NCBI RefSeq assembly: GCF_004343035.1
Contig: NZ_SMCQ01000018.1
Coordinates: 1-61,623, forward strand
Length of the DNA: 61,623 bases
Source of the DNA: Longibaculum muris
GTDB taxonomy: Bacteria > Bacillota_I > Bacilli_A > Erysipelotrichales > Coprobacillaceae
Direction of reading: 5' to 3'
The notes below the pieces were generated by a model. It made no database searches. It saw nothing but the letters and a program-made list of their open reading frames with translations, and was not told where the DNA came from. The stretch's first letter is position 1. Each line of letters opens with the position of its first letter. Positions 23,031 to 51,673 of this stretch are shown here, one piece after another. Made by a program: the position numbers and the translations under genes.

Positions 23031-23331
23031 AAAACCTCGCTCCTCATTATGAAAAAATCATAATAGAGGACGAGAGTTAATCACTTCGTGGTTCCACCTC
23101 ATATTCATTATTACCTCACAGTAATAACCTTATCAAGTACGCTTATCAATAAGTTCATACTCTAGCGTGATAACGGTCGCAAGTTCCGTAGCAGCTTACT
23201 CCACATGTTTCAGTGCTCCACTCAAGGACGAGTTCAATAATGAAGTCATGACTCTTTACACCATCCAGAGCCTCTCTATGCTTTCTACACTACCTACTAT
23301 TTCCTATCTTTGTATTTCTTATAGGGTTGTT
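23031..23331 (-). promoter_or_regulatory. Leucine T-box riboswitch leader
   Basis: On the minus strand the leader shows Stem I, with a CTC leucine specifier codon in GAACTCGTCC (about 23227-23236). The T-box core AGGTGGAACCACG (23087-23099) follows. A strong terminator (CTCGTCCTC...GAGGAGCGAG then TTTTTT) occupies 23031-23078. Uncharged tRNA-Leu should pair with the specifier and T-box and favour the antiterminator. It controls leuA and the seven genes behind it. The 433-base gap between leuA and the next gene is explained by this leader and its promoter. Confidence 0.95.
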
Positions 23332-23337
23332 GCATAT

Positions 23338-23366
23338 ATGATATACCTTTTCCAATTTTTAGTCAA
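23338..23366 (-). promoter_or_regulatory. Promoter of the leu/ilv operon
   Basis: TTGACT (23361-23366) and TATCAT (23338-23343) with a 17-base spacer on the minus strand, just ahead of the T-box leader. Confidence 0.75.
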
Positions 23367-23435
23367 CATTATTTTCATAATTTTGTTTGTGAATTTTTAG
23401 TTTTAGAAAATTTCATATACTAATTTTCGTATTTA

Positions 23436-24242
23436 TCAAAATTTTAAACAATTCTTAATAAACTCATTATAATTATATACAATTGTATCATTAGAAATAG
23501 TACGATAACCTTGATTTTTTTGTGTCACTTGCCCCATAATCTCTACACCATTATCAATATATTTACCTTGATAAACAAATAAATAAGAATCCTCATTTCC
23601 TTTCATCGTCTCATGATCAATATATACTCCTTCTTCAGAGCGTTCATGTGAAACAATTTTAATAATTGCATTAACATTCTTAATTTCTTTAATAAAACGT
23701 TGAGCAATCTCCTGACTTTCACAAATAATAATAAAATATAAAGGTATTGGTTTTTCTTCAAATAGTTTTGTTATATCTTGATGTTTATAAACTTGAAACT
23801 GCTTTGGATACATTTTATTATATTTTTCATGAATCATTTGATCATCATTAGGAATTTCTTTATCTACAGTCGTATTAGGTGAGTAAGAATCATAAGCATT
23901 TCGTAAAGAAACATCAATATTTTGGCAATCTATTTTCTGTTTTAGTTCATTTTCATGTTCATACATATAAATACTATGAAGTTGAGAAAAAAATCCATAT
24001 TCATTATTAATAAAATAATCATCTTTCTTGTCTGAACAAGATATTCTCCAATAACTATATTTATCTCCCTTAGCATTTTGCTCAGATTGTGTATGTTCCT
24101 TTTTTATATGATATTTTCCAAAAAAGCTTTCCATTACATCTTGATACTCATAAGGATAAAATTGCTGTCTCAATATATCCACAGTTAAACTTGTCACGAT
24201 AAATAAAACAAACACTATTATTACAGTTAATAATTTCTTCAT
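23436..24242 (-). CDS. Membrane-anchored protein of unknown function
   Basis: 268 residues. A short N-terminal hydrophobic segment (about 4-22) without a lipobox is followed by a polar, Lys/Glu/Tyr-rich region that should lie outside the cell. I do not recognise a family. A mixed stretch (about 165-200, LYFIIICESQEIAQRFIKEI) looks like a small alpha/beta fold. It sits at the end of the ABC transporter cassette, 84 bases beyond the small two-helix protein. A terminator between them suggests that part of its expression is independent. Two Cys (residues about 69 and 105) could form a disulfide. An accessory or immunity-like role is only a guess from context. Confidence 0.6.
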   Translation of the reverse strand: MKKLLTVIIVFVLFIVTSLTVDILRQQFYPYEYQDVMESFFGKYHIKKEHTQSEQNAKGDKYSYWRISCSDKKDDYFINNEYGFFSQLHSIYMYEHENELKQKIDCQNIDVSLRNAYDSYSPNTTVDKEIPNDDQMIHEKYNKMYPKQFQVYKHQDITKLFEEKPIPLYFIIICESQEIAQRFIKEIKNVNAIIKIVSHERSEEGVYIDHETMKGNEDSYLFVYQGKYIDNGVEIMGQVTQKNQGYRTISNDTIVYNYNEFIKNCLKF

Positions 24243-24310
24243 ACTATCATCCTCGCTCTCTTTTATCCTACCATTTCTCTTAATAAAAGTTATTAAGATT
24301 TAATTAATAA

Positions 24311-24335
24311 AATAAAAAAACGAGAATTAATCTCG
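24311..24335 (-). terminator. Terminator after the two-helix small protein
   Basis: CGAGA/TCTCG hairpin with an ATTAA loop followed on the minus strand by seven T. It overlaps the stop of the 24327-24542 gene. Confidence 0.75.
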
Positions 24336-24542
24336 CTTTTTCAATATCATCATTACCCCTAAACAACAACTCAAAAAACTCAAAGCCATCAATATCCACA
24401 CAATATAGATATTTCCTTTATCAGCAAACTGTTGTAAAGTATACTGCTCATCTAATCCTATTCCATATCCATACATTGTGTACATACATAAGATTAAACT
24501 AACCATACTCATAACCGTTTGCAACATTACTATTTTTTTCAT
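24327..24542 (-). CDS. Small two-helix membrane protein
   Basis: About 71 residues. Two hydrophobic segments (about 3-23 and 46-66) are joined by a polar loop with GLDEQYTLQQFADKG, and the tail is KKRD. No family is recognised. The ATG at 24542 has AAGGAAG seven bases upstream; ATG 24548 is the alternative. It is about 87 bases downstream of the second ABC-FtsX protein and closes that operon at a terminator, so a subunit or immunity-type helper of the transporter is possible. Confidence 0.6.
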   Translation of the reverse strand: MKKIVMLQTVMSMVSLILCMYTMYGYGIGLDEQYTLQQFADKGNIYIVWILMALSFLSCCLGVMMILKKRD

Positions 24543-24628
24543 ATTCATTCTTCCTTTTTGTACGCTATTCTTGCGCTTAATAGATTTTTTAAAAATGCTT
24601 TGTCTGTTCTATATGCGATATCATTTTA

Positions 24629-26443
24629 TTAATTTCTAAATATCTTCTCTGGATTTAATTTTCTAATCATTATAACAGATAAAACTATTGAACAAATAAA
24701 ACTTACTCCCAAAACAATACCAATCTGAGAAAACAAATTAAATATTGGAATAGATAAACCTCTAAACTGTAAAATAACAATAACCAATAATGCTATTAAA
24801 AACGATGTTAACATTTTTATCAATTGATCTATACCTAAAATAATTCCCATTTCAAATCTCATGACTCCATTTGCCATTAAAATCGTTAATTCCTTTTCAC
24901 GCCTTTTCATCATCCAATAATCAAGATAAATAAACATCATAACCATTAATAAAACAGTGATGACTTTTTCCATTTGAAGCATACTTATTGTTTCATATTT
25001 CATATTAATCAATAGATTTACATCTTGGAATGTTGATAAAATATTGATATCTGGATATTTATTAGCAATATATATCATCAAACTATTTAAAGTATTAATA
25101 TTATCACAGAATAAAATATAAGTACTTTCCTTAGGTTTTCCATTTGCTTTCTTTACAAGTTGAAGAATATCTTCATAATTCATCAACATATAATCCAATG
25201 ATTTGTTATAAGCATTAATTTTTCCTATAGACATAACTCCACTTATTGGAATATCTTGTTTAACCTGAACTTTACCATTCACAATGAAGTGAGAATAAAC
25301 AGTATCTTTATTAATTTGATCTATATTTTTATAGACAACATGGTAAGAAGGATATAAATGCCTTTCCTCTTGCAATGTTTTATATAACTTACCTTCAAGA
25401 CGATTTTGCGCATATAGTGGATAAACTGGTATTTCTTCTTCATCAACAATGACACTTAAATCATAATAAGGGTATATTTCTTTAATACCTTCTTGATTTG
25501 TTATATCTTTAATAATTGAATCCTGATTATTTATTCCTGAAGTTTTATCATTATCAGTAAACTCAATCATCAGCTGATAATCAGCTAATTTATCAATTCT
25601 TGCATCAATATCATTTAAAGATTGCCATATTGTATGCTCAATTGCAGCAACACCTAAACATCCTATAGACAATATCATAATCATTAAACAATTCATCAGT
25701 TTTTCACTTTTAAAATTATGTTTTATATAAAACCATAAAAATGAATAATCTTTTTTAGAGGATAATTGTTTTCCAGGATAAACTTCATCTTTAGCTTGTT
25801 TGACAACGCATATGCCCTCACCATTTAATTCATAAATAGTATCAGCATATTCATTAGCTATATAGCTATGACTTGCCAAAATGATTGTACATTGTTGTTT
25901 TAATATTTCTTGTAATAATTCAAAAATTTCTCTTTCATTAATTTCATCTAATGCACTCGTTGGTTCATCAAGAATAATAATTTCAGGATTTTTCAGTAAG
26001 ACACATGCTATTGCGAGTCTTTGTTTTTCTCCTCCAGACAATGTTTCAATTTTTTGATCTAAAGAATTATGAAGATGAACTTTTTCTAATAATTCTGATA
26101 ATTCATTCTTATTCTCTTTTTTATTAATCAAATGACAATAATATTGAAAACATTCATAAATCGTCATATTTTCCAAAAGACAAAAGTCTTGAAATACATA
26201 ACCAATACAATATCTTCTAAGATATGCTTTTTTATGTGAAGATAGAGTCATAAGATTTTGTTCGTGATAAAAATACTTATATTGTGTTTCTTTAGATATT
26301 AAAGCAAGTTTATAAAGTAATGTTGATTTTCCACTCCCACTTAGTCCTCTTATTAATGTTATTTTATTTTCAGGTATATTTAAATTATTGATTCTAATAG
26401 AGTTTCTAGTAAATTTCATAGAAATATTTTCTAACTCAATCAT
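24629..26443 (-). CDS. ABC transporter: ATPase fused to FtsX-like permease (604 aa)
   Basis: The N-terminal ATPase (about 1-215) has Walker A GLSGSGKST, signature LSGGE, Walker B IIILDEPTSALD and an ASH switch histidine. A first membrane helix follows (about 250-270). An extracellular region (about 275-490) and three C-terminal helices (about 490-510, 535-560, 575-595) give the MacB/FtsX-type layout, ending in KLNPEKIFRN. Such transporters move peptides or signal rather than import nutrients. Its start overlaps the stop of the related 680-residue gene by 4 bases (ATGA), so the two likely form a heterodimer. Confidence 0.88.
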   Translation of the reverse strand: MIELENISMKFTRNSIRINNLNIPENKITLIRGLSGSGKSTLLYKLALISKETQYKYFYHEQNLMTLSSHKKAYLRRYCIGYVFQDFCLLENMTIYECFQYYCHLINKKENKNELSELLEKVHLHNSLDQKIETLSGGEKQRLAIACVLLKNPEIIILDEPTSALDEINEREIFELLQEILKQQCTIILASHSYIANEYADTIYELNGEGICVVKQAKDEVYPGKQLSSKKDYSFLWFYIKHNFKSEKLMNCLMIMILSIGCLGVAAIEHTIWQSLNDIDARIDKLADYQLMIEFTDNDKTSGINNQDSIIKDITNQEGIKEIYPYYDLSVIVDEEEIPVYPLYAQNRLEGKLYKTLQEERHLYPSYHVVYKNIDQINKDTVYSHFIVNGKVQVKQDIPISGVMSIGKINAYNKSLDYMLMNYEDILQLVKKANGKPKESTYILFCDNINTLNSLMIYIANKYPDINILSTFQDVNLLINMKYETISMLQMEKVITVLLMVMMFIYLDYWMMKRREKELTILMANGVMRFEMGIILGIDQLIKMLTSFLIALLVIVILQFRGLSIPIFNLFSQIGIVLGVSFICSIVLSVIMIRKLNPEKIFRN

Positions 26444-28482
26444 TCTTTTTCACCCCTAACTATCAATAATGGAATCCCTGCTTCAATAATAAAAGATAAT
26501 ATTATACAAAATAGAAAAAATGAGAGATGAATAAAAATAAACTCTTGATAAATAAACCTCATAAAGATATATATAATGATTCCCATAGTAAGAAGTGAAG
26601 CCACTGAACATAAAATTCCCTCATATATAAAATAATATCCTAATATTTTTTTAGCTTTTTGACTTGTTATGCCACGATTTGTAAAAAATCTGACAAAATC
26701 TTGATATTCTTTTTTCTGATTATATTTGATACCAAAAAACAACATTAATGCAACACACATAATCAATGCTGATATCATTGTAACGCCTTTGTTCATATCT
26801 TTAGCAACTAACACTTGGACTTCTTTATCATAATATTCTGAATAAACACGATATCCCAAAGCTTCAATTTCTTCTTTAACTTCTGAAAAAGTAGCATTAT
26901 CATCTACTGAAAATTGATAATAAATTGGATAGAATGGTATCACAGGTTCTTTTATAATCTCACCATGACTTTCTTTTATAGCTGGTAATAATCCCTGACT
27001 TATCTTTTCACGATATTCTTTTTCAACACTTAGTGGATAGAAGATATCAGGATTAACGCTAAATTCTTTACAAAGTTTAAAATCAAGTGGTCCAGAATAC
27101 ATCCCTTTAATTTTCATTCTTATAGTCGTTTGTTTAAAATAAAGTTCTCGATATTCCTGTGATTCTACATAATAAGGTATTCCTATAGGAAACTCAATTT
27201 CAGTATCTGTATTTATACTAGACATAACTTCTTGAAATTTCATTTGATCTAAATCTACAATACTCTCCATTATTTCACCAGTTATCAAATAATAAAGAAA
27301 ATATTGATCAATATAAATTCCTTCATCAACATCAAATGTAGAAGTTAATCTTTTTTGAGAATAATCATATTCTTCATTATATGTCCCTAAATTATACTGT
27401 ATTTCACCTTTTTCTCTTACTGCAATTAATTTTTGATTTTGAAAAACACGAAATTGATTGATTATATTATCTGAGATAATATTACATCCATCATGACACA
27501 TAATATAAGGCCATATTTTATTAATATGTTTAATATTTTCAAGATTCTTTAATTCCTCCTTAGCAATTGGTGAGGAATTGTTATATAAAGTATCATCAAA
27601 AAAATCTGTATTTTTAGAAATAACCCCTGCTTTATTTACAGTCTTTAGCTCATTTTGATATTTATAAATAACAGAATTTCCATAGAATACTGAAAAACAA
27701 CTTAAACCTATTGCAATAGCCATAAAAACGATCATACATACTTTTAATATCTTTTTATGATTAAACATCTTATAAATATATTGTAAATAATGTTGAGTTG
27801 TTTTCTTTGTTAGCTTCGAAGAAGATATCTTTTTCACTTGATGATCTTGATATACACAATTTAAAATCTTATCTTCAATGAAATAAACAACATCTCCCTC
27901 ACACTTCATTAATTTATCATGAGTAAAAACAATGACAATATGTCCTTGATGAGCATATTCTTTAAGTAACTCTATAATCAACTGACTATGATGTTTATCT
28001 AAAGAAGCTGTTGGTTCATCAAATACAAGAATTTCTGGTTGATGAATCATTGCCAGTAAAATACTAATTCTAATCTTTTCGCCACCAGATAGCTGTTGTG
28101 GGTATTCGTTTAAAACATGTTGAATTTCTAAACGCTGAATGTATTCATCAATATCATATCCATCCCATAATGACTGACATAACGCTATATGATCTTTTAT
28201 TGTTAAATCATCAATAAAAGCAGGAATTTGATTCACAATCCCCATCTTTTTATTAATAAATTCCTGTTTCTGTTTATATGATAATTGACCAATATTTTCA
28301 TTATCATAATAATAATCATATTTCCCTATATTATGCAAAATTACTAACTGGTGTAATGTTGATTTACCACTACCACTTTTACCCATAACAAGTGTCAATT
28401 CATTATGATGAGCACAAAAATAGGCATCTTCATAAATGATATGTTTCCCATACTCCACATGAATATTTTTGAGTTCAAGCAT
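26440..28482 (-). CDS. ABC transporter: ATPase fused to FtsX-like permease (680 aa)
   Basis: The N-terminal ATPase (about 1-215) has Walker A GKSGSGKST, signature LSGGE and Walker B ILVFDEPTASLD. One helix (about 245-268), a large extracellular domain (about 270-560) and three C-terminal helices (about 565-585, 610-640, 645-670) follow. This is the MacB/FtsX topology used by antimicrobial-peptide export and resistance transporters. GGGAGG precedes the ATG. It is the first gene after the structured leader and candidate LytTR site at 28795-28826, so control by the adjacent AgrA-like regulator is inferred. Confidence 0.88.
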   Translation of the reverse strand: MLELKNIHVEYGKHIIYEDAYFCAHHNELTLVMGKSGSGKSTLHQLVILHNIGKYDYYYDNENIGQLSYKQKQEFINKKMGIVNQIPAFIDDLTIKDHIALCQSLWDGYDIDEYIQRLEIQHVLNEYPQQLSGGEKIRISILLAMIHQPEILVFDEPTASLDKHHSQLIIELLKEYAHQGHIVIVFTHDKLMKCEGDVVYFIEDKILNCVYQDHQVKKISSSKLTKKTTQHYLQYIYKMFNHKKILKVCMIVFMAIAIGLSCFSVFYGNSVIYKYQNELKTVNKAGVISKNTDFFDDTLYNNSSPIAKEELKNLENIKHINKIWPYIMCHDGCNIISDNIINQFRVFQNQKLIAVREKGEIQYNLGTYNEEYDYSQKRLTSTFDVDEGIYIDQYFLYYLITGEIMESIVDLDQMKFQEVMSSINTDTEIEFPIGIPYYVESQEYRELYFKQTTIRMKIKGMYSGPLDFKLCKEFSVNPDIFYPLSVEKEYREKISQGLLPAIKESHGEIIKEPVIPFYPIYYQFSVDDNATFSEVKEEIEALGYRVYSEYYDKEVQVLVAKDMNKGVTMISALIMCVALMLFFGIKYNQKKEYQDFVRFFTNRGITSQKAKKILGYYFIYEGILCSVASLLTMGIIIYIFMRFIYQEFIFIHLSFFLFCIILSFIIEAGIPLLIVRGEKE

Positions 28483-28529
28483 TAGCCAACACTCCTCCCT
28501 TTAATTAAAGTGTATCAAATAAAAATAGA

Positions 28530-28698
28530 GATGAATATAAAAACAATTCATCTTATTTATTTTTTAAATTATTAATTCTAATCTATGATATCTTATATCT
28601 ATATATTTCATTTATATATTTATCAGAGTACATCACTCAATAATAATGAGATAAATTAAAAGATAGCAAACTTATCATTTATATTAGTGCTCTGATAA
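28530..28698 (-). promoter_or_regulatory. Structured leader of the ABC transporter operon
   Basis: The 363-base gap between the kinase and the transporter holds a long-range stem, TTATCAGAGTAC (28620-28631) against GTGCTCTGATAA (28687-28698). It encloses a small CTCA/TGAG hairpin. Closer to the gene is GATGAAT/ATTCATC (28530-28552), followed on the minus strand by TCTATTTTTATTT, which looks like a weak terminator. No convincing leader peptide with a ribosome site is visible. RNA-level control such as attenuation is inferred. Confidence 0.45.
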
Positions 28699-28794
28699 CT
28701 CAGAAAGCAAATAACGAAAATATAAATAATATTTTTCCTTTATAATTAGCTAATTACATTCTAATATATTATTATTTTTAATGATAGTAGTTGG

Positions 28795-28826
28795 GGACGT
28801 TTTGCAGATATCGAGGACATTTTGCA
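28795..28826. promoter_or_regulatory. Candidate LytTR-type direct repeat site
   Basis: GGACGTTTTGCA (28795-28806) and GGACATTTTGCA (28815-28826) are 12-bp direct repeats with one mismatch and a 20-bp period. LytTR regulators such as AgrA and ComE bind pairs of about 9-bp repeats with a period near 21 bp. The site lies between the kinase terminator and the transporter leader, with an AT-rich -10-like TAATAT about 24 bases downstream on the minus strand. Confidence 0.6.
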
Positions 28827-28836
28827 AATTGTATAC

Positions 28837-28862
28837 AAAAAAACACTATTTCAATAATAGCG
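28837..28862 (-). terminator. Terminator after the AgrC-like kinase gene
   Basis: CGCTATT/AATAGTG hairpin (one G-U pair) followed on the minus strand by seven T; it overlaps the kinase stop codon. Confidence 0.8.
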
Positions 28863-30054
28863 TTATCTTTATTTCATAGTATTTTTCATTATTTTCAATA
28901 GAATATGTTCCTTGATATTGATCAATAATTCTTTTGATACTCTTTAATCCAAACCCATGATTCTCTTTATCTTTTTTAGTAATCAATTCTTTTGAAAAGT
29001 TTTTAGAATCATTATCATTTTTTACTCTTATATGCAAAAACAAATCCTCTTGAACAATATCAATAATTATTCTACCTTGAGTTAAACAATTTTCTATAGC
29101 ATTATCTAATATATTTGATAATAATTCATTCAAATCATAATCAACCATATTTATAAATTCATTAACAATAATATGACATTCTACTTGTATATTTTTAGCA
29201 TATGCTTGAATAATTTTATTATTAATAATTGTATTTAATAATTTATTATTTGATTGAATAAGCGTTGGCATATGATCTATCATTGCTTTTTTAGAAACGA
29301 TAAAATCTTTTATCTTTTCAAAGTTATTAATTTCAATATAATAATTTAACAAATCAAAATCATGTTTTAAATCATGTTTTGTTATTTTTAATTGATCATA
29401 TAAATAGGATAATGTTTCTTCATTTTTCTTTTCTTGTTTTAAACGTTTGTATTCTTCTTGTGCCAAATTCATCTTTGATATTTCCATAAACAAGAGAATT
29501 AATACAAAAATACAAAGTACCATCATTACAATCGTAATAAGTATTTCAGGTAAATCACTTTTGATAACTATGAAAAGTTGTAAAAACTGTTGTAAAACAT
29601 AATGAATAAAATACAAAATTAGTATTAACTCATAAGTAACTTTTTTATTTAGATATCTTTTCTCAAGATTTTTATTCTTTATTATTATATAAGTTCCTAA
29701 TCCATATAACATACGATTGATAAGAGAAAGATTAACTTGACTCCATTGCAACGAAATGAAAATTGTAAAACAAGTAGTTATAGTAGAAAACGCACCTTCA
29801 AAAGTTGTTATTAAAAGCAGTTCAGACCATGTATTATATGTAAAGAAATGCGAAATGATAGTTGAAGTAATAATGACAGCAGTTGATAAAAACAAATCAT
29901 ACATATTCATATAATTAGATAAAGTAATAATAGATAAATTGACAGCTGCTAATAAAAATCTATACAACCACTTTTTACACTTTATATCTACTAAAGAAGA
30001 TATAAACCATGATAAAAGAATAGATTCAATAACATTAATAATTATCCATTCCAT
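28846..30054 (-). CDS. AgrC-like (HPK10-type) sensor histidine kinase
   Basis: 402 residues. About six membrane helices fill residues 1-195, then a coiled linker leads to the phospho-acceptor H227 in KHDLKHDFD. The GHKL ATPase domain (about 285-400) has the N-box LLSNILDNAIENC and the G-box HGFGLKSI. This is the AgrC/ComD layout that normally senses a secreted peptide. No agrB or agrD-like gene is visible in the window, so the signal may be an exogenous or distantly encoded peptide. Its start overlaps the regulator's stop by 13 bases with an AAAGAAG site. Confidence 0.9.
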   Translation of the reverse strand: MEWIIINVIESILLSWFISSLVDIKCKKWLYRFLLAAVNLSIITLSNYMNMYDLFLSTAVIITSTIISHFFTYNTWSELLLITTFEGAFSTITTCFTIFISLQWSQVNLSLINRMLYGLGTYIIIKNKNLEKRYLNKKVTYELILILYFIHYVLQQFLQLFIVIKSDLPEILITIVMMVLCIFVLILLFMEISKMNLAQEEYKRLKQEKKNEETLSYLYDQLKITKHDLKHDFDLLNYYIEINNFEKIKDFIVSKKAMIDHMPTLIQSNNKLLNTIINNKIIQAYAKNIQVECHIIVNEFINMVDYDLNELLSNILDNAIENCLTQGRIIIDIVQEDLFLHIRVKNDNDSKNFSKELITKKDKENHGFGLKSIKRIIDQYQGTYSIENNEKYYEIKITLLLK

Positions 30055-30728
30055 ATCTTCTTTCTCCTATATTCCATATATGCCTTCATAAACTTATCCT
30101 TACTATTTCTAACAAAATTAATATTGTTTTGTTGAGTTAAGCATATATATTGTTCTCTAACATCAATAACATGTCTAAAGTTAATAATTGTATAAGAATT
30201 AAATCTAAAAAAACTAGATTGATCTAATTGTGTTAATATTTCTTTTAAAGATGATTTAATAACATATTTGTTATAGGTTGTATGAATTGTAGCTGTATTT
30301 TTAGATGAATTTATATAAATAATCTCACATTGTAAGATATCTATATCTCCTTTGATTGTTAATATTTGTTTATCATTTAATTGACTTTGATTGTATTTTT
30401 TATAAAATTCTTTTAAATCAGGGTATAAATTTGATTTTCTAACAAAATAAAATGTTTTTTGTTTATAACTTTCAAAGACAAAATGTTCAACACTAGAAAT
30501 ATATACTAAAGTTGTATGGGGAAAAACAGTCAAAATCTTTTCACCTTCATTAAAACTTTTTTTATCATATAATAAAACATCTAGAAAGAGAATATCAAAT
30601 TCTTCTTTATATAATTCATCTGATATCTCTTGATATCTTTTTATTTGTACTTGAGAAAAGAGTTGTTCTAATTCTTTATTTAAAACTTCAGCAAATTCCT
30701 TATCATCATCTATAATCCCTATCTTCAT
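30042..30728 (-). CDS. AgrA-like LytTR-family response regulator
   Basis: About 228 residues. The receiver domain (1-115) has the acidic triad start DDD (7-9) and D50 in LFLDVLL. The C-terminal LytTR DNA-binding domain (about 130-225) contains FFRFNSYTIINFRHV. It should bind paired direct repeats, of which 28795-28826 is the best local candidate. ATG 30728 has GGTG six bases upstream; ATG 30740 overlaps that site. It is first gene of the pair with the AgrC-like kinase and probably drives the downstream ABC transporter operon. Confidence 0.9.
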   Translation of the reverse strand: MKIGIIDDDKEFAEVLNKELEQLFSQVQIKRYQEISDELYKEEFDILFLDVLLYDKKSFNEGEKILTVFPHTTLVYISSVEHFVFESYKQKTFYFVRKSNLYPDLKEFYKKYNQSQLNDKQILTIKGDIDILQCEIIYINSSKNTATIHTTYNKYVIKSSLKEILTQLDQSSFFRFNSYTIINFRHVIDVREQYICLTQQNNINFVRNSKDKFMKAYMEYRRKKIWNG

Positions 30729-30777
30729 ATCTATCACCATTTTTATTTTAACATAATTCTTCTTTTACGATAAGGCT

Positions 30778-30801
30778 AAAAAAGGAAAGGTCTCCCTTTC
30801 C
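30778..30801 (-). terminator. Terminator after murF-ddl
   Basis: GGAAAGG/CCTTTCC hairpin with a four-base loop followed on the minus strand by six T; it abuts the stop codon. Confidence 0.85.
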
Positions 30802-33188
30802 TATCTATCAAAAGCTAAATCTATTAATTTATCAATTAAATCACTATAGGCTATACCATAATCAGCCATTAATTGTGGATACATAGAAATACGCGTAAAT
30901 CCTGGCATTGTATTAATTTCATTCAAATAAACCTTGTTTGTTTTCTTATCTAAGAAGAAATCAACACGAGATAATCCATGTCCATCAATAGCTTTAAATA
31001 CCTTTAAAGCATAACCTCTTATTTCTTCTTGAATCTTTTCATCAACTAATGCTGGAATACATGTTTTACTTTCTTCATCTTCATATTTTGATTCAAAAGT
31101 ATAAAACTCTCCATGTGGCATAATTTGTCCAACACGTGAAACAATAGGATCATCATTTCCTAATACTGCAGTTTCTAGTTCAATACAATCAACACATTCT
31201 TCAATGACAATATGACTATCATATTTTGCTGTTTCATTTAATTTATCATAGAAATCTTCTTCTTTATCCACTCTATAACATCCTACACTTGAACCAGAAC
31301 GACTAGCTTTCATAAAGCATGGGAATCCCATTTTATCTTTAACAGCTTGAATAATATCAGTAGATTCATTAAATTCATGATCTACAACAACCAATGTACC
31401 ATCATATCTTTTTTTCACGTATAAAGATTGGACTTGAGGAATACCTACAGTTTCTAATATCTTCTTTGTATAGATTTTATCCATTGCAACACTTGAACCC
31501 ATTGTACGACATCCTACATATGGAACTTGAGCAAGTTCTAATAAACCTTGAATTGTTCCATCTTCCCCATATTGACCATGTAAAACTGGGAATACAACAT
31601 CTTGTTTCTTTAATAATCCATAGATATCTTCAATTGGTAAAGCATTATCTAACCATGTATCTTTTGCTAAATCTTCTTGATTTTGATCTAATAAATACCA
31701 TGTTCCATCTTTATCAATTCCAGCTAAAGTTAATTCATATTTTTCCAAATGAATATTATTTAACACTGACGTACAAGACATTCTTGAAATAATATGTTCA
31801 GTTGATTGTCCCCCACAAATAACTAATAATTTTTTCATAGCTTTTCTCTCCTTCAAATGTTCAACAACTTCTTTAAGATGCATACCATTAGATCCTTTAA
31901 CAAGTAAAACATCATCTTTTTCTAAAAGTTCATCTAAATATTCAATCAATGCTTGATTATCTTCAAAATGATAAGCTTGTTTTAAGCCTAACTCCTGTGC
32001 TTTATCTACCATATACTGACAAGCTTTACCAACGCATAAAAGCTCATCAATTCCTTTTTCAACAACATATTGTCCTACTTCTTCATGTAATGCTTGTTCA
32101 TATTCTCCAAGTTCTAACATATCTGCTAAAACTGCAATTTTTCTTGTTTGATATTGTCCTAAAACATCTAAACTTGATTTCATAGAATCTAAATTTGCAT
32201 TATAAGTTCCATCAATAACCTTTATTCCATCTGCTAAATCAAGTACATCCATACGATTCTTTGTTAATTCAAAATGTTCTACACCTTCAATACATCTTTC
32301 CATATCAATATCCAATGTCAATCCAATCGCAATCGCAATTAAAGCATTATAAACAAAATGAATCCCTGAAACAGGAACATGAACTTGATAAGTCTTTCCT
32401 TGATAATCAATATCAAAATAAGATTCTTCCAATCTTAAATCAACATTTCTAGCTTTTAAATCACAACCATCATTTTGACCAACTCTTAATAAATGATGAT
32501 CACTTAAAGAAACAGTATGAAGCATATCATTATCATCATTAATAACCAATGTTCCTTGTTTTGCTAAAGCATTTACAATTTCCATCTTTGCTTTTAAAAT
32601 ATTTTCTCTTGAACCTAATTCTCCAATATGTGCAGTTCCTACATTCGTAATTGCTGCAATATCTGGACAAGCAATATGTGTTAAATGATCAATTTCACCT
32701 AAATGATTCATTCCCATTTCTAAAATCATAACTTCTTCATCTTGATATCTTAACATTGTTAATGGTAAACCAATATGATTATTATAGTTTCCTAATGTTT
32801 TTAATGTTTTATATTTTGTTGAAACAACTGAATAAATCATATCTTTGGTACTTGTTTTACCAACACTACCAGTAATCCCTACAACCTTAACATTGCGATG
32901 AAGTCTTAAATATCTTGCCATATCACTCATTGCCTGAAGGGTATCTTCAACCAAGATAACATTCTTATCAGGATAATCTACAACCTGTGATGTTATGATT
33001 GAACTTGCACCTTGTTGAAATGCCTGTTCAATATAAGCATGTCCATCACTCTTTTCACCAATTAAAGGAATATATAAATCCCCTTCTTTAATCTTTCTTG
33101 TATCTTGAGTAAATCCTAAAATATCATCATCTAAATTCCCACTCAATAATTTTCCATTTGTCGCATCAATAATTTCTTTTATAAGCAT
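30801..33188 (-). CDS. murF-ddl: MurF-Ddl fusion: UDP-MurNAc-tripeptide D-Ala-D-Ala ligase plus D-Ala-D-Ala ligase
   Basis: 795 residues in one open frame. Residues 1-450 are MurF: Mur N-domain, ATP loop GITGSVGKT (104-112), EMGMNHLGEI, and NVGTAHIGELGS. Residues 451-795 are a complete D-Ala-D-Ala ligase: ICGGQSTEH, GCRTMGSSVAMDK, the ATP-grasp KASRSGSSVGCY and the C-terminal NEINTMPGFT. Ddl makes D-Ala-D-Ala and MurF attaches it to the peptidoglycan precursor, so the fusion joins two consecutive steps. There is an internal ATG (M451) with its own AAGGAG site at 31846-31853, so free Ddl may also be made. The ligase tail carries the family motifs without a visible defect. Confidence 0.93.
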   Translation of the reverse strand: MLIKEIIDATNGKLLSGNLDDDILGFTQDTRKIKEGDLYIPLIGEKSDGHAYIEQAFQQGASSIITSQVVDYPDKNVILVEDTLQAMSDMARYLRLHRNVKVVGITGSVGKTSTKDMIYSVVSTKYKTLKTLGNYNNHIGLPLTMLRYQDEEVMILEMGMNHLGEIDHLTHIACPDIAAITNVGTAHIGELGSRENILKAKMEIVNALAKQGTLVINDDNDMLHTVSLSDHHLLRVGQNDGCDLKARNVDLRLEESYFDIDYQGKTYQVHVPVSGIHFVYNALIAIAIGLTLDIDMERCIEGVEHFELTKNRMDVLDLADGIKVIDGTYNANLDSMKSSLDVLGQYQTRKIAVLADMLELGEYEQALHEEVGQYVVEKGIDELLCVGKACQYMVDKAQELGLKQAYHFEDNQALIEYLDELLEKDDVLLVKGSNGMHLKEVVEHLKERKAMKKLLVICGGQSTEHIISRMSCTSVLNNIHLEKYELTLAGIDKDGTWYLLDQNQEDLAKDTWLDNALPIEDIYGLLKKQDVVFPVLHGQYGEDGTIQGLLELAQVPYVGCRTMGSSVAMDKIYTKKILETVGIPQVQSLYVKKRYDGTLVVVDHEFNESTDIIQAVKDKMGFPCFMKASRSGSSVGCYRVDKEEDFYDKLNETAKYDSHIVIEECVDCIELETAVLGNDDPIVSRVGQIMPHGEFYTFESKYEDEESKTCIPALVDEKIQEEIRGYALKVFKAIDGHGLSRVDFFLDKKTNKVYLNEINTMPGFTRISMYPQLMADYGIAYSDLIDKLIDLAFDR
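31836..31853 (-). promoter_or_regulatory. Internal ribosome binding site and start for the Ddl half
   Basis: AAGGAGAG (31846-31853 on the minus strand) lies seven bases before an in-frame ATG (31836-31838) that matches the usual Ddl N-terminus MKKLLVICGG. Confidence 0.75.
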
Positions 33189-50375: not shown

Positions 50376-51548
50376 TTAATGATGAAATAAACGAAGATGT
50401 GTACAAGCCATAACAATCTGATATTTATCACAAGTTTCAATCACATGGTCATCTCTAATGCTTCCACCTGCCTGAGCTACATATTTCACTCCACTTTTAT
50501 ATGCGCGTTCAATATTATCCCCAAATGGGAAGAACGCATCTGAACCTAAAGAAACATCAGTTAAAGTGGCTAACCATTCTTTCTTTTCTTCTCTAGTAAG
50601 AGGGGTTGGCTGTTCAGTAAAAAACTGTTGCCACATTCCATCACTTAAGACATCTTCATAATCATCTGACATATAGACATCAATTGTATTATCACGATCA
50701 GCACGACGAATCTTATCTTTAAATGGTAAGTTTAAAACTTTTGGATGTTGGCGTAAATACCAAGTATCAGCTTTACTACCAGCAAGTCTTGTACAATGAA
50801 TACGTGATTGTTGACCAGCTCCAATCCCTATTGCTTGTCCATCTTTCACATAGCATACTGAATTGGATTGGGTATATTTTAAAGTAATCATTGAGATTAA
50901 TAAATCTCGTTTTGCCCCTTTAGGTAATTCTTTATTTTGTGTTGGAATATCTTCAAATAAATCTTCTGTGATTTTTGCATTGTTTCTTCCTTGTTCAAAA
51001 GTTATACCAAAAACATCTTTTGTTTCAATCTCATTAGGTACATAATCAGGATCAATTTGAATTATCAAATAATTTCCTTTTTTCTTTTTCTTTAAAATCT
51101 CTAAGGCTTCTTTTGTATAAGAAGGAGCAATAACTCCATCACTCACCTCTCTTGACAAATATCTTGCACATGATTCATCACATTCATCACTTAAAGCTGC
51201 AAAGTCACCATAACTAGACATACGATCACTTCCACGTGCTCTCACATATGCCACAGCAATCGGAGATAATTTTAAACCTTCAGTAAAATAAATCTTTTCT
51301 AATGTCTCATCTAATGGAACATATACAGCCGCTCCAGCTGGAGAAACATGCTTAAAACTTGCAGCACTAGGTAATCCTGTAGCTTCTTTTAATTCTTTAA
51401 CCAATTGCCAGCTATTGAATGCATCCAATAAGTTAATATACCCAGCTTTTCCATTTAAGATTTGAATAGGTAATTCACCATCTTTCATATAAACCCTTGC
51501 TGGTTTTTGATTAGGATTACATCCATACTTTAATTCTAACTCCTTCAT
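50376..51548 (-). CDS. purH: AICAR transformylase (stand-alone PurH formyltransferase)
   Basis: 390 residues, only the C-terminal formyltransferase half of classical PurH; the IMP cyclohydrolase half is missing. The Lys-His pair in SFKHVSPAGAA, GIGAGQQSRIHCTRLAGSKAD, and the terminal SDAFFPFGDNIERA with AQAGGSIRDD are present. It formylates AICAR from 10-formyl-THF, the penultimate purine step. IMP cyclohydrolase must be encoded elsewhere. An AGGAGG site precedes the ATG. Expression should be controlled by the ZTP riboswitch at 51579-51667. Confidence 0.93.
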   Translation of the reverse strand: MKELELKYGCNPNQKPARVYMKDGELPIQILNGKAGYINLLDAFNSWQLVKELKEATGLPSAASFKHVSPAGAAVYVPLDETLEKIYFTEGLKLSPIAVAYVRARGSDRMSSYGDFAALSDECDESCARYLSREVSDGVIAPSYTKEALEILKKKKKGNYLIIQIDPDYVPNEIETKDVFGITFEQGRNNAKITEDLFEDIPTQNKELPKGAKRDLLISMITLKYTQSNSVCYVKDGQAIGIGAGQQSRIHCTRLAGSKADTWYLRQHPKVLNLPFKDKIRRADRDNTIDVYMSDDYEDVLSDGMWQQFFTEQPTPLTREEKKEWLATLTDVSLGSDAFFPFGDNIERAYKSGVKYVAQAGGSIRDDHVIETCDKYQIVMACTHLRLFHH

Positions 51549-51578: not shown

Positions 51579-51667
51579 AGAGCCGCAATCTGGACTCTTT
51601 GCCCAGACGGTCGGCTCTTAACATTATATTTCCTGTGGTCAATTCCACTTCCGTCAGTCATATAACT
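51579..51667 (-). promoter_or_regulatory. ZTP (pfl) riboswitch with terminator
   Basis: On the minus strand the leader shows ATGACTGACGGAAGTGG, then CCACAGG, a short linker and GCCGACCGTCTGGGCA, the hallmarks of the ZTP/pfl aptamer. The aptamer's 3' part is built into a strong terminator (AGAGCCG/CGGCTCT with an inner CTGG/CCAG stem, 51579-51618, then TTTTT). Binding of ZTP, which builds up when 10-formyl-THF is scarce, should break the terminator and turn on the AICAR transformylase. Confidence 0.92.
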
Positions 51668-51673
51668 ACCTTT

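Follow-up and report, generated by a model that had tools for sequence, protein, structure and literature searches.

The island and its borders

The window analyzed here is the whole 61,623 bp stretch of Longibaculum muris DNA (contig NZ_SMCQ01000018.1), which comes from the one genome of this genus in the data set. In the interval from murF/ddl to leuA it carries a five-gene island (24313-30783, minus strand; Table 1) with an intrinsic terminator at each end, which contains, in order, genes for a LytTR regulator and a GHKL kinase, a 364-bp gap, genes for two ABC ATPase-permease fusions of 680 and 604 amino acids, and a gene for a 73-aa protein. The genes listed by the first-pass annotation of this region were all recovered on the minus strand, each where it had been placed; the regulator frame can also be opened at 30740, but 30728 is the better start. 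The same annotation read an AT-rich composition as a hint of acquisition, and this holds, as the island has a GC content of 24.8% against 30.6% in the remaining window, the lowest value among all 6.5-kb stretches of the window.

Table 1. Features of the island and its immediate neighbor (positions in the window)
Feature	Position	Strand	Basis
Intrinsic terminator of preceding murF-ddl gene, upstream border of unit	30783..30802	-	terminator prediction
AgrA-like response regulator, LytTR DNA-binding domain	30042..30728	-	Pfam LytTR PF04397, E 1.1e-10
AgrC-like polytopic GHKL sensor kinase, orphan	28846..30054	-	HATPase_c_5, E 3e-20
Putative AgrA (LytTR-type) binding site, direct repeat TGCAAAATGTCC / TGCAAAACGTCC, 20-bp spacing	28795..28827	-	conservation
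MacB-type half-transporter 1, ATPase fused to 4-TM permease, 680 aa	26440..28482	-	ABC_tran, E 3e-20
MacB-type half-transporter 2, 604 aa	24629..26443	-	ABC_tran, E 2e-26
73-aa two-helix membrane protein, last gene of unit	24327..24548	-	ORF list
Intrinsic terminator closing unit, directly after 73-aa gene	24313..24343	-	folding z-score -6.5
268-aa membrane-anchored protein	23436..24242	-	beyond terminator; probably neighboring gene

The 268-aa anchored protein had also been counted as a member of this set. The closing terminator stands between its gene and the island, however, and its homologs were found only in the same genome (contig C2), in G005 and in G021, with no transporter nearby in two of these three places; for these two reasons its gene is treated as probably a neighbor outside the unit. 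An AlphaFold2 model of the protein built on a four-row alignment (pLDDT 70.6) gave no clear fold match, the best VIA Z being 4.4, to unrelated chains. The profile searches that had been suggested for this protein and for the small two-helix protein gave no Pfam or NCBIfam match for either. The 73-aa protein has no relatives in its own genome, and its position in the related G061 locus (below) is occupied by an unrelated 93-aa protein with three TM segments.

Several features of the flanking DNA deserve mention in their own right. A single 795-aa frame (window 30801-33188) encodes MurF and Ddl as a fusion; at the murF/ddl junction a TAA lies between the two genes in G021 (AAATAAATG) and none is present here (AAAGCTATG), and G005 and G006 likewise have one stop in frame. 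Upstream of leuA is a T-box leader (RF00230, 100.9 bits; window 23063-23319), which is overlapped by a plus-strand ORF (23167-23400) whose seeming conservation is probably due only to the RNA. Farther away, a ZMP-ZTP riboswitch (RF01750; window 51594-51671) lies upstream of the gene at 50376-51548.

The half-transporter pair

The two transporter proteins had attracted attention as ATPase-FtsX fusions. The fusion of ATPase and permease in one chain is real, but it is not unusual, since these are MacB-type half-transporters of which the genome has several paralogous fused pairs (among them those on contigs C34, C29, C43, C17 and C26). Both chains have intact Walker A and B motifs, signature and H-loop, and the 680- and 604-aa proteins are 47% and 50% identical, respectively, to their Massilimicrobiota homologs. 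The FtsX label did not reach the Pfam cut-off in the permease part (E 0.45), but an AlphaFold2 model of the 604-aa protein (11-sequence alignment; pLDDT 82.5) matches MacB (5lj7) from end to end, with a Z of 35.4 over 565 residues and the type VII order of nucleotide-binding domain, TM1, ectodomain and TM2-4. The Pfam FtsX profile alone is too weak to reveal this match. This fold is that of the 604-aa protein; its 680-aa partner is assigned from sequence and TM pattern, and the two different half-transporters presumably form a heterodimer. No adaptor gene was found among the island ORFs, so that MacA/TolC partners of a tripartite pump are absent there, and a plasmid search using the permease gave no match.

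Some of the paralogous pairs in the genome adjoin other LytTR regulators or helix-turn-helix regulators, one of the latter having TPR hits. Two of the helix-turn-helix genes (L014 7204-8454 and L017 9980-11215) lie directly upstream of twin-fused pairs and are possibly RRNPP-type peptide receptors. Scanning next to these own-genome pairs gave no secreted-peptide gene, save one uncertain 163-aa candidate on C29.

The best NCBIfam hit of both window ATPases is TIGR03608 (lactococcin-972 ABC), with 166.6 and 121.6 bits against a curated cut-off of 254.85. Neither permease part matches TIGR01654/DUF1430, and no secreted bacteriocin precursor gene was found at the window locus. As the ATPases fall below the cut-off, and the secreted proteins of related loci (below) have neither a family nor a mutual alignment, the locus may work like a lactococcin-972-type immunity module, yet it is not classed here as a member of that group.

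The AgrC/AgrA pair and its relatives

The kinase and regulator are true relatives of AgrC and AgrA, both by Pfam and by orthology of the kinase to agrBD-linked kinases, in agreement with their initial description as an AgrCA-like pair. The kinase is 47% identical to its closest homolog, that of G021, and 42% identical to that of G061, both of which are adjacent to agrB and agrD; its kinase motifs, including H227, are conserved. The regulator is 45% identical to the G021 AgrA encoded at the equivalent chromosomal position. Each of the five loci of this kinase clade has, after agrC, a direct repeat with a spacing of exactly 20 bp. The summed best repeat score is 49 at this spacing; the other spacings between 10 and 31 score no more than 37, and 49 was not attained in any of 1000 shuffles. 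The window repeat, the sole copy in the genome at up to three mismatches, precedes the transporter genes and is consistent with a LytTR-type AgrA site in a target promoter, to which AgrA would bind.

No peptide gene, AgrB or AgrD had been seen at the locus, and the searches bear this out: profiles for AgrB and AgrD found nothing on the window contig, and the coding strand of the 364-bp gap has no ORF longer than 25 aa. Alignment with the corresponding gap in Massilimicrobiota locus L025 scored 34, a value that 17 of 200 shuffles matched, and thus gave no significant sign that a peptide gene had been deleted. A GATGAAT...ATTCATC hairpin in the gap, placed like the L025 terminator, was rejected, its stability being no better than chance (z -1.0). 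The one agrB/agrD pair of the genome lies on contig C29 (L044 2940-3700 and L015), in the vicinity of additional LytTR/kinase genes and of two twin-fused transporter pairs. The C29 AgrD core (...SVLGMYQP) is close to that of the G061 AgrD (SRIGMYQ). The predicted rings of the autoinducing peptides (AIPs) are S-V-L-G-M for C29, S-R-I-G-M for G061 and S-R-S-G-S for G021, their boundaries being our own reading of the AgrD sequences and not tool output.

Related loci place the pair in context. In G021 the same murF/ddl-to-leuA slot holds agrA, agrC, agrB and agrD in that order (AgrB with a Pfam match of 4e-28, AgrD above the NCBIfam cut-off); a G021 transporter gene is split. The G061 order is agrA, agrC, agrB, agrD, a secreted-protein gene, ABC1 and ABC2. 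This secreted-protein gene (L063 6384-6671) is out of frame with its own ribosome-binding site and ATG, and is either frameshifted near its start or misassembled. Two Massilimicrobiota species (L024, L025) have agrA, agrC, ABC1 and ABC2 without agrBD, at another chromosomal place than the window, and in one of the two a gene for a 142-aa secreted protein lies in between. A search for the same gene order with linked peptide genes, which the first-pass annotation had proposed as a check, is thus answered by Massilimicrobiota and G061. More distant relatives of the kinase, in G003, G063, G027, G065 and G020, also adjoin agrB, and because the relatives' kinases do so, parsimony favors the view that the lineages of the window and of Massilimicrobiota lost agrBD. 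Grouping the window with Massilimicrobiota as one clade was not rejected (p 0.085), so this loss may have happened once or twice. Since the nearest relatives differ, those of AgrC being in G021 and those of the transporters in Massilimicrobiota, the island may be mosaic or recombinant instead of the product of a simple deletion.

In several relatives a Sec-type secreted protein of 95-142 aa is encoded before the transporters (132-142 aa in G030 and G021), and such a gene is absent from the window locus. These proteins could not be treated as one family, as they are not alignable and the pairwise BLAST E is 0.019 or worse. A profile search matched them to no bacteriocin family; that they are bacteriocins is what we infer.

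The ddl-leuA interval (L071, L092, L093, L095, L096) is a variable slot, because its cargo differs: G021 has agr genes there, G005 two membrane protein/ATPase pairs of lactococcin-972 type, G006 a sigma-factor-like gene with a putative partner, and two Massilimicrobiota species nothing. On contig C3 of G021, a twin-fused module and a 134-aa secreted protein have agrBDCA as a neighbor, together with canonical genes of lactococcin-972 type (an ATPase above the TIGR03608 cut-off and a membrane protein with a weak TIGR01654 match). A 195-201 aa protein with five TM segments and no family match is apparently common to G021 and G005 in the slot (L071 8319-8924, L092 2412-2999); it resembles a sensor domain without a kinase.

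Function of the island and comparison with known systems

We favor, at a probability of roughly 0.55, the explanation that the island is what is left, receptor and transporter, of a lactococcin-972-like bacteriocin locus under agr control, and that its orphan AgrCA pair answers an AIP made elsewhere and induces MacB-type immunity. An AIP from the C29 agrBD genes or from neighboring bacteria would activate AgrC; phosphorylated AgrA would then bind the 20-bp-spaced repeat and turn on the transporter operon, and the heterodimer of half-transporters would shield the cell envelope from a related secreted bacteriocin, so that immunity would be kept without the toxin. We infer both the identity of the ligand and the transporters' role in immunity, the latter in preference to export because the Sec-type N-termini of the linked proteins would need no dedicated exporter. 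The immunity role of the transporters in lactococcin 972 loci is itself unproven (PMC11796350). The overall reading in the first-pass annotation, a candidate antimicrobial-peptide response or export system, survives in its AgrCA pair, its fusions, its absent agrBD and peptide and its hint of acquisition, and not in the membership of the 268-aa protein or the unusualness of the fusions.

A nearer source of the signal could make the system an ordinary one. If the window AgrC were a second receptor for the cell's own C29 AIP, it would give a normal quorum response in trans with no eavesdropping, and the presence on C29 of the only agrB and clear agrD of the genome, with a core resembling that of G061 (the AgrC proteins of G061 and the window being 42% identical), speaks for this. 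But a kinase and regulators of their own lie near the C29 agrBD genes, AgrC receptors tend to be specific (agr groups), and the window operator occurs once in the genome, so we consider such self-sensing doubtful.

Less likely again is a Bce-like detoxification system that was never part of a bacteriocin locus, its kinase sensing an antimicrobial peptide or transporter flux and inducing a MacB-type resistance pump. The adjacency of kinase, regulator and transporters would suit such a system, as would several paralogous pairs of this genome that adjoin other regulators and have no peptide genes, but the kinase is of AgrC type (polytopic, GHKL, with orthologs linked to agrBD) and not of the two-helix BceS type, and the permease topology is that of MacB and not of the 10-TM BceB. 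It is improbable that the two transporters serve to export or mature a peptide whose gene lies elsewhere in the genome: their ATPases are closest to the putative bacteriocin export family TIGR03608, but the relatives' linked proteins have Sec-type N-termini and no clear peptide gene lies near any own-genome pair. A decaying leftover without function, to which the lost agrBD and peptide, the split G021 transporter gene and the frameshifted G061 peptide gene might point, is equally hard to credit when every window gene has its full length, the catalytic motifs are intact, the operator is conserved, and two Massilimicrobiota species also retain the receptor-transporter set without agrBD.

The reading as a remnant of a bacteriocin locus can be carried further, though only tentatively: the orphan AgrCA pair may be an early-warning receptor for the AIPs of foreign producers that induces a heterodimeric MacB-type immunity pump in a cell with no signal or toxin of its own, and the ddl-leuA interval may be an exchange slot for such quorum-regulated attack and immunity modules. 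If true, eavesdropping-controlled immunity of the pneumococcal ComR type would extend to agr-type two-component receptors in gut-type Firmicutes; a recurring module of AgrCA, a secreted beta-rich peptide and two MacB-type fusions, unnamed in current family models, would be defined; and there would be concrete AIP candidates for tests.

Among known systems, BceAB-BceRS differs most plainly, with its separate ATPase, 10-TM permease and two-helix kinase, where this locus has a fused ATPase, MacB topology and a polytopic AgrC-type kinase. MacB itself (type VII) has the same chain of ATPase, TM segment, ectodomain and three TM segments, and the 604-aa protein has its fold, but here the host is Gram-positive, the island has no MacA/TolC partner, and two different half-transporters are adjacent. 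Lactococcin 972 loci (TIGR03608 ATPase with TIGR01654/DUF1430) share the best-scoring ATPase family, and canonical members occur in the same slot (G005) and beside a twin-fused module (G021); the window differs in scoring below the family cut-offs, in the fusion of ATPase and permease and in having no peptide gene. The agrBDCA systems of Staphylococcus and others likewise have an AgrC-type GHKL kinase, an AgrA LytTR regulator and a direct-repeat operator, whereas the window locus is without agrB and agrD, its repeat spacing is 20 bp, and the target is a transporter operon. The Massilimicrobiota loci L024 and L025 have the same agrA-agrC-ABC1-ABC2 order and operator and no agrBD, but they lie in another chromosomal place and one species keeps the 142-aa secreted-protein gene. 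Finally, pneumococcal scb strains (D39-type; lactococcin-972-like streptococcin B) that are without the bacteriocin and signal gene retain scbBC and a ComR homolog, which responds to an S. pseudopneumoniae peptide (PMC11796350). That receptor is a cytoplasmic ComR homolog and not a two-component AgrCA pair, and ScbB and ScbC are separate, unlike the two MacB-type fusions here; in both cases, though, the receptor and the immunity/transport genes are kept and the bacteriocin and signal gene are gone, and the scb receptor can answer the signal of another species, as is proposed for the window locus.
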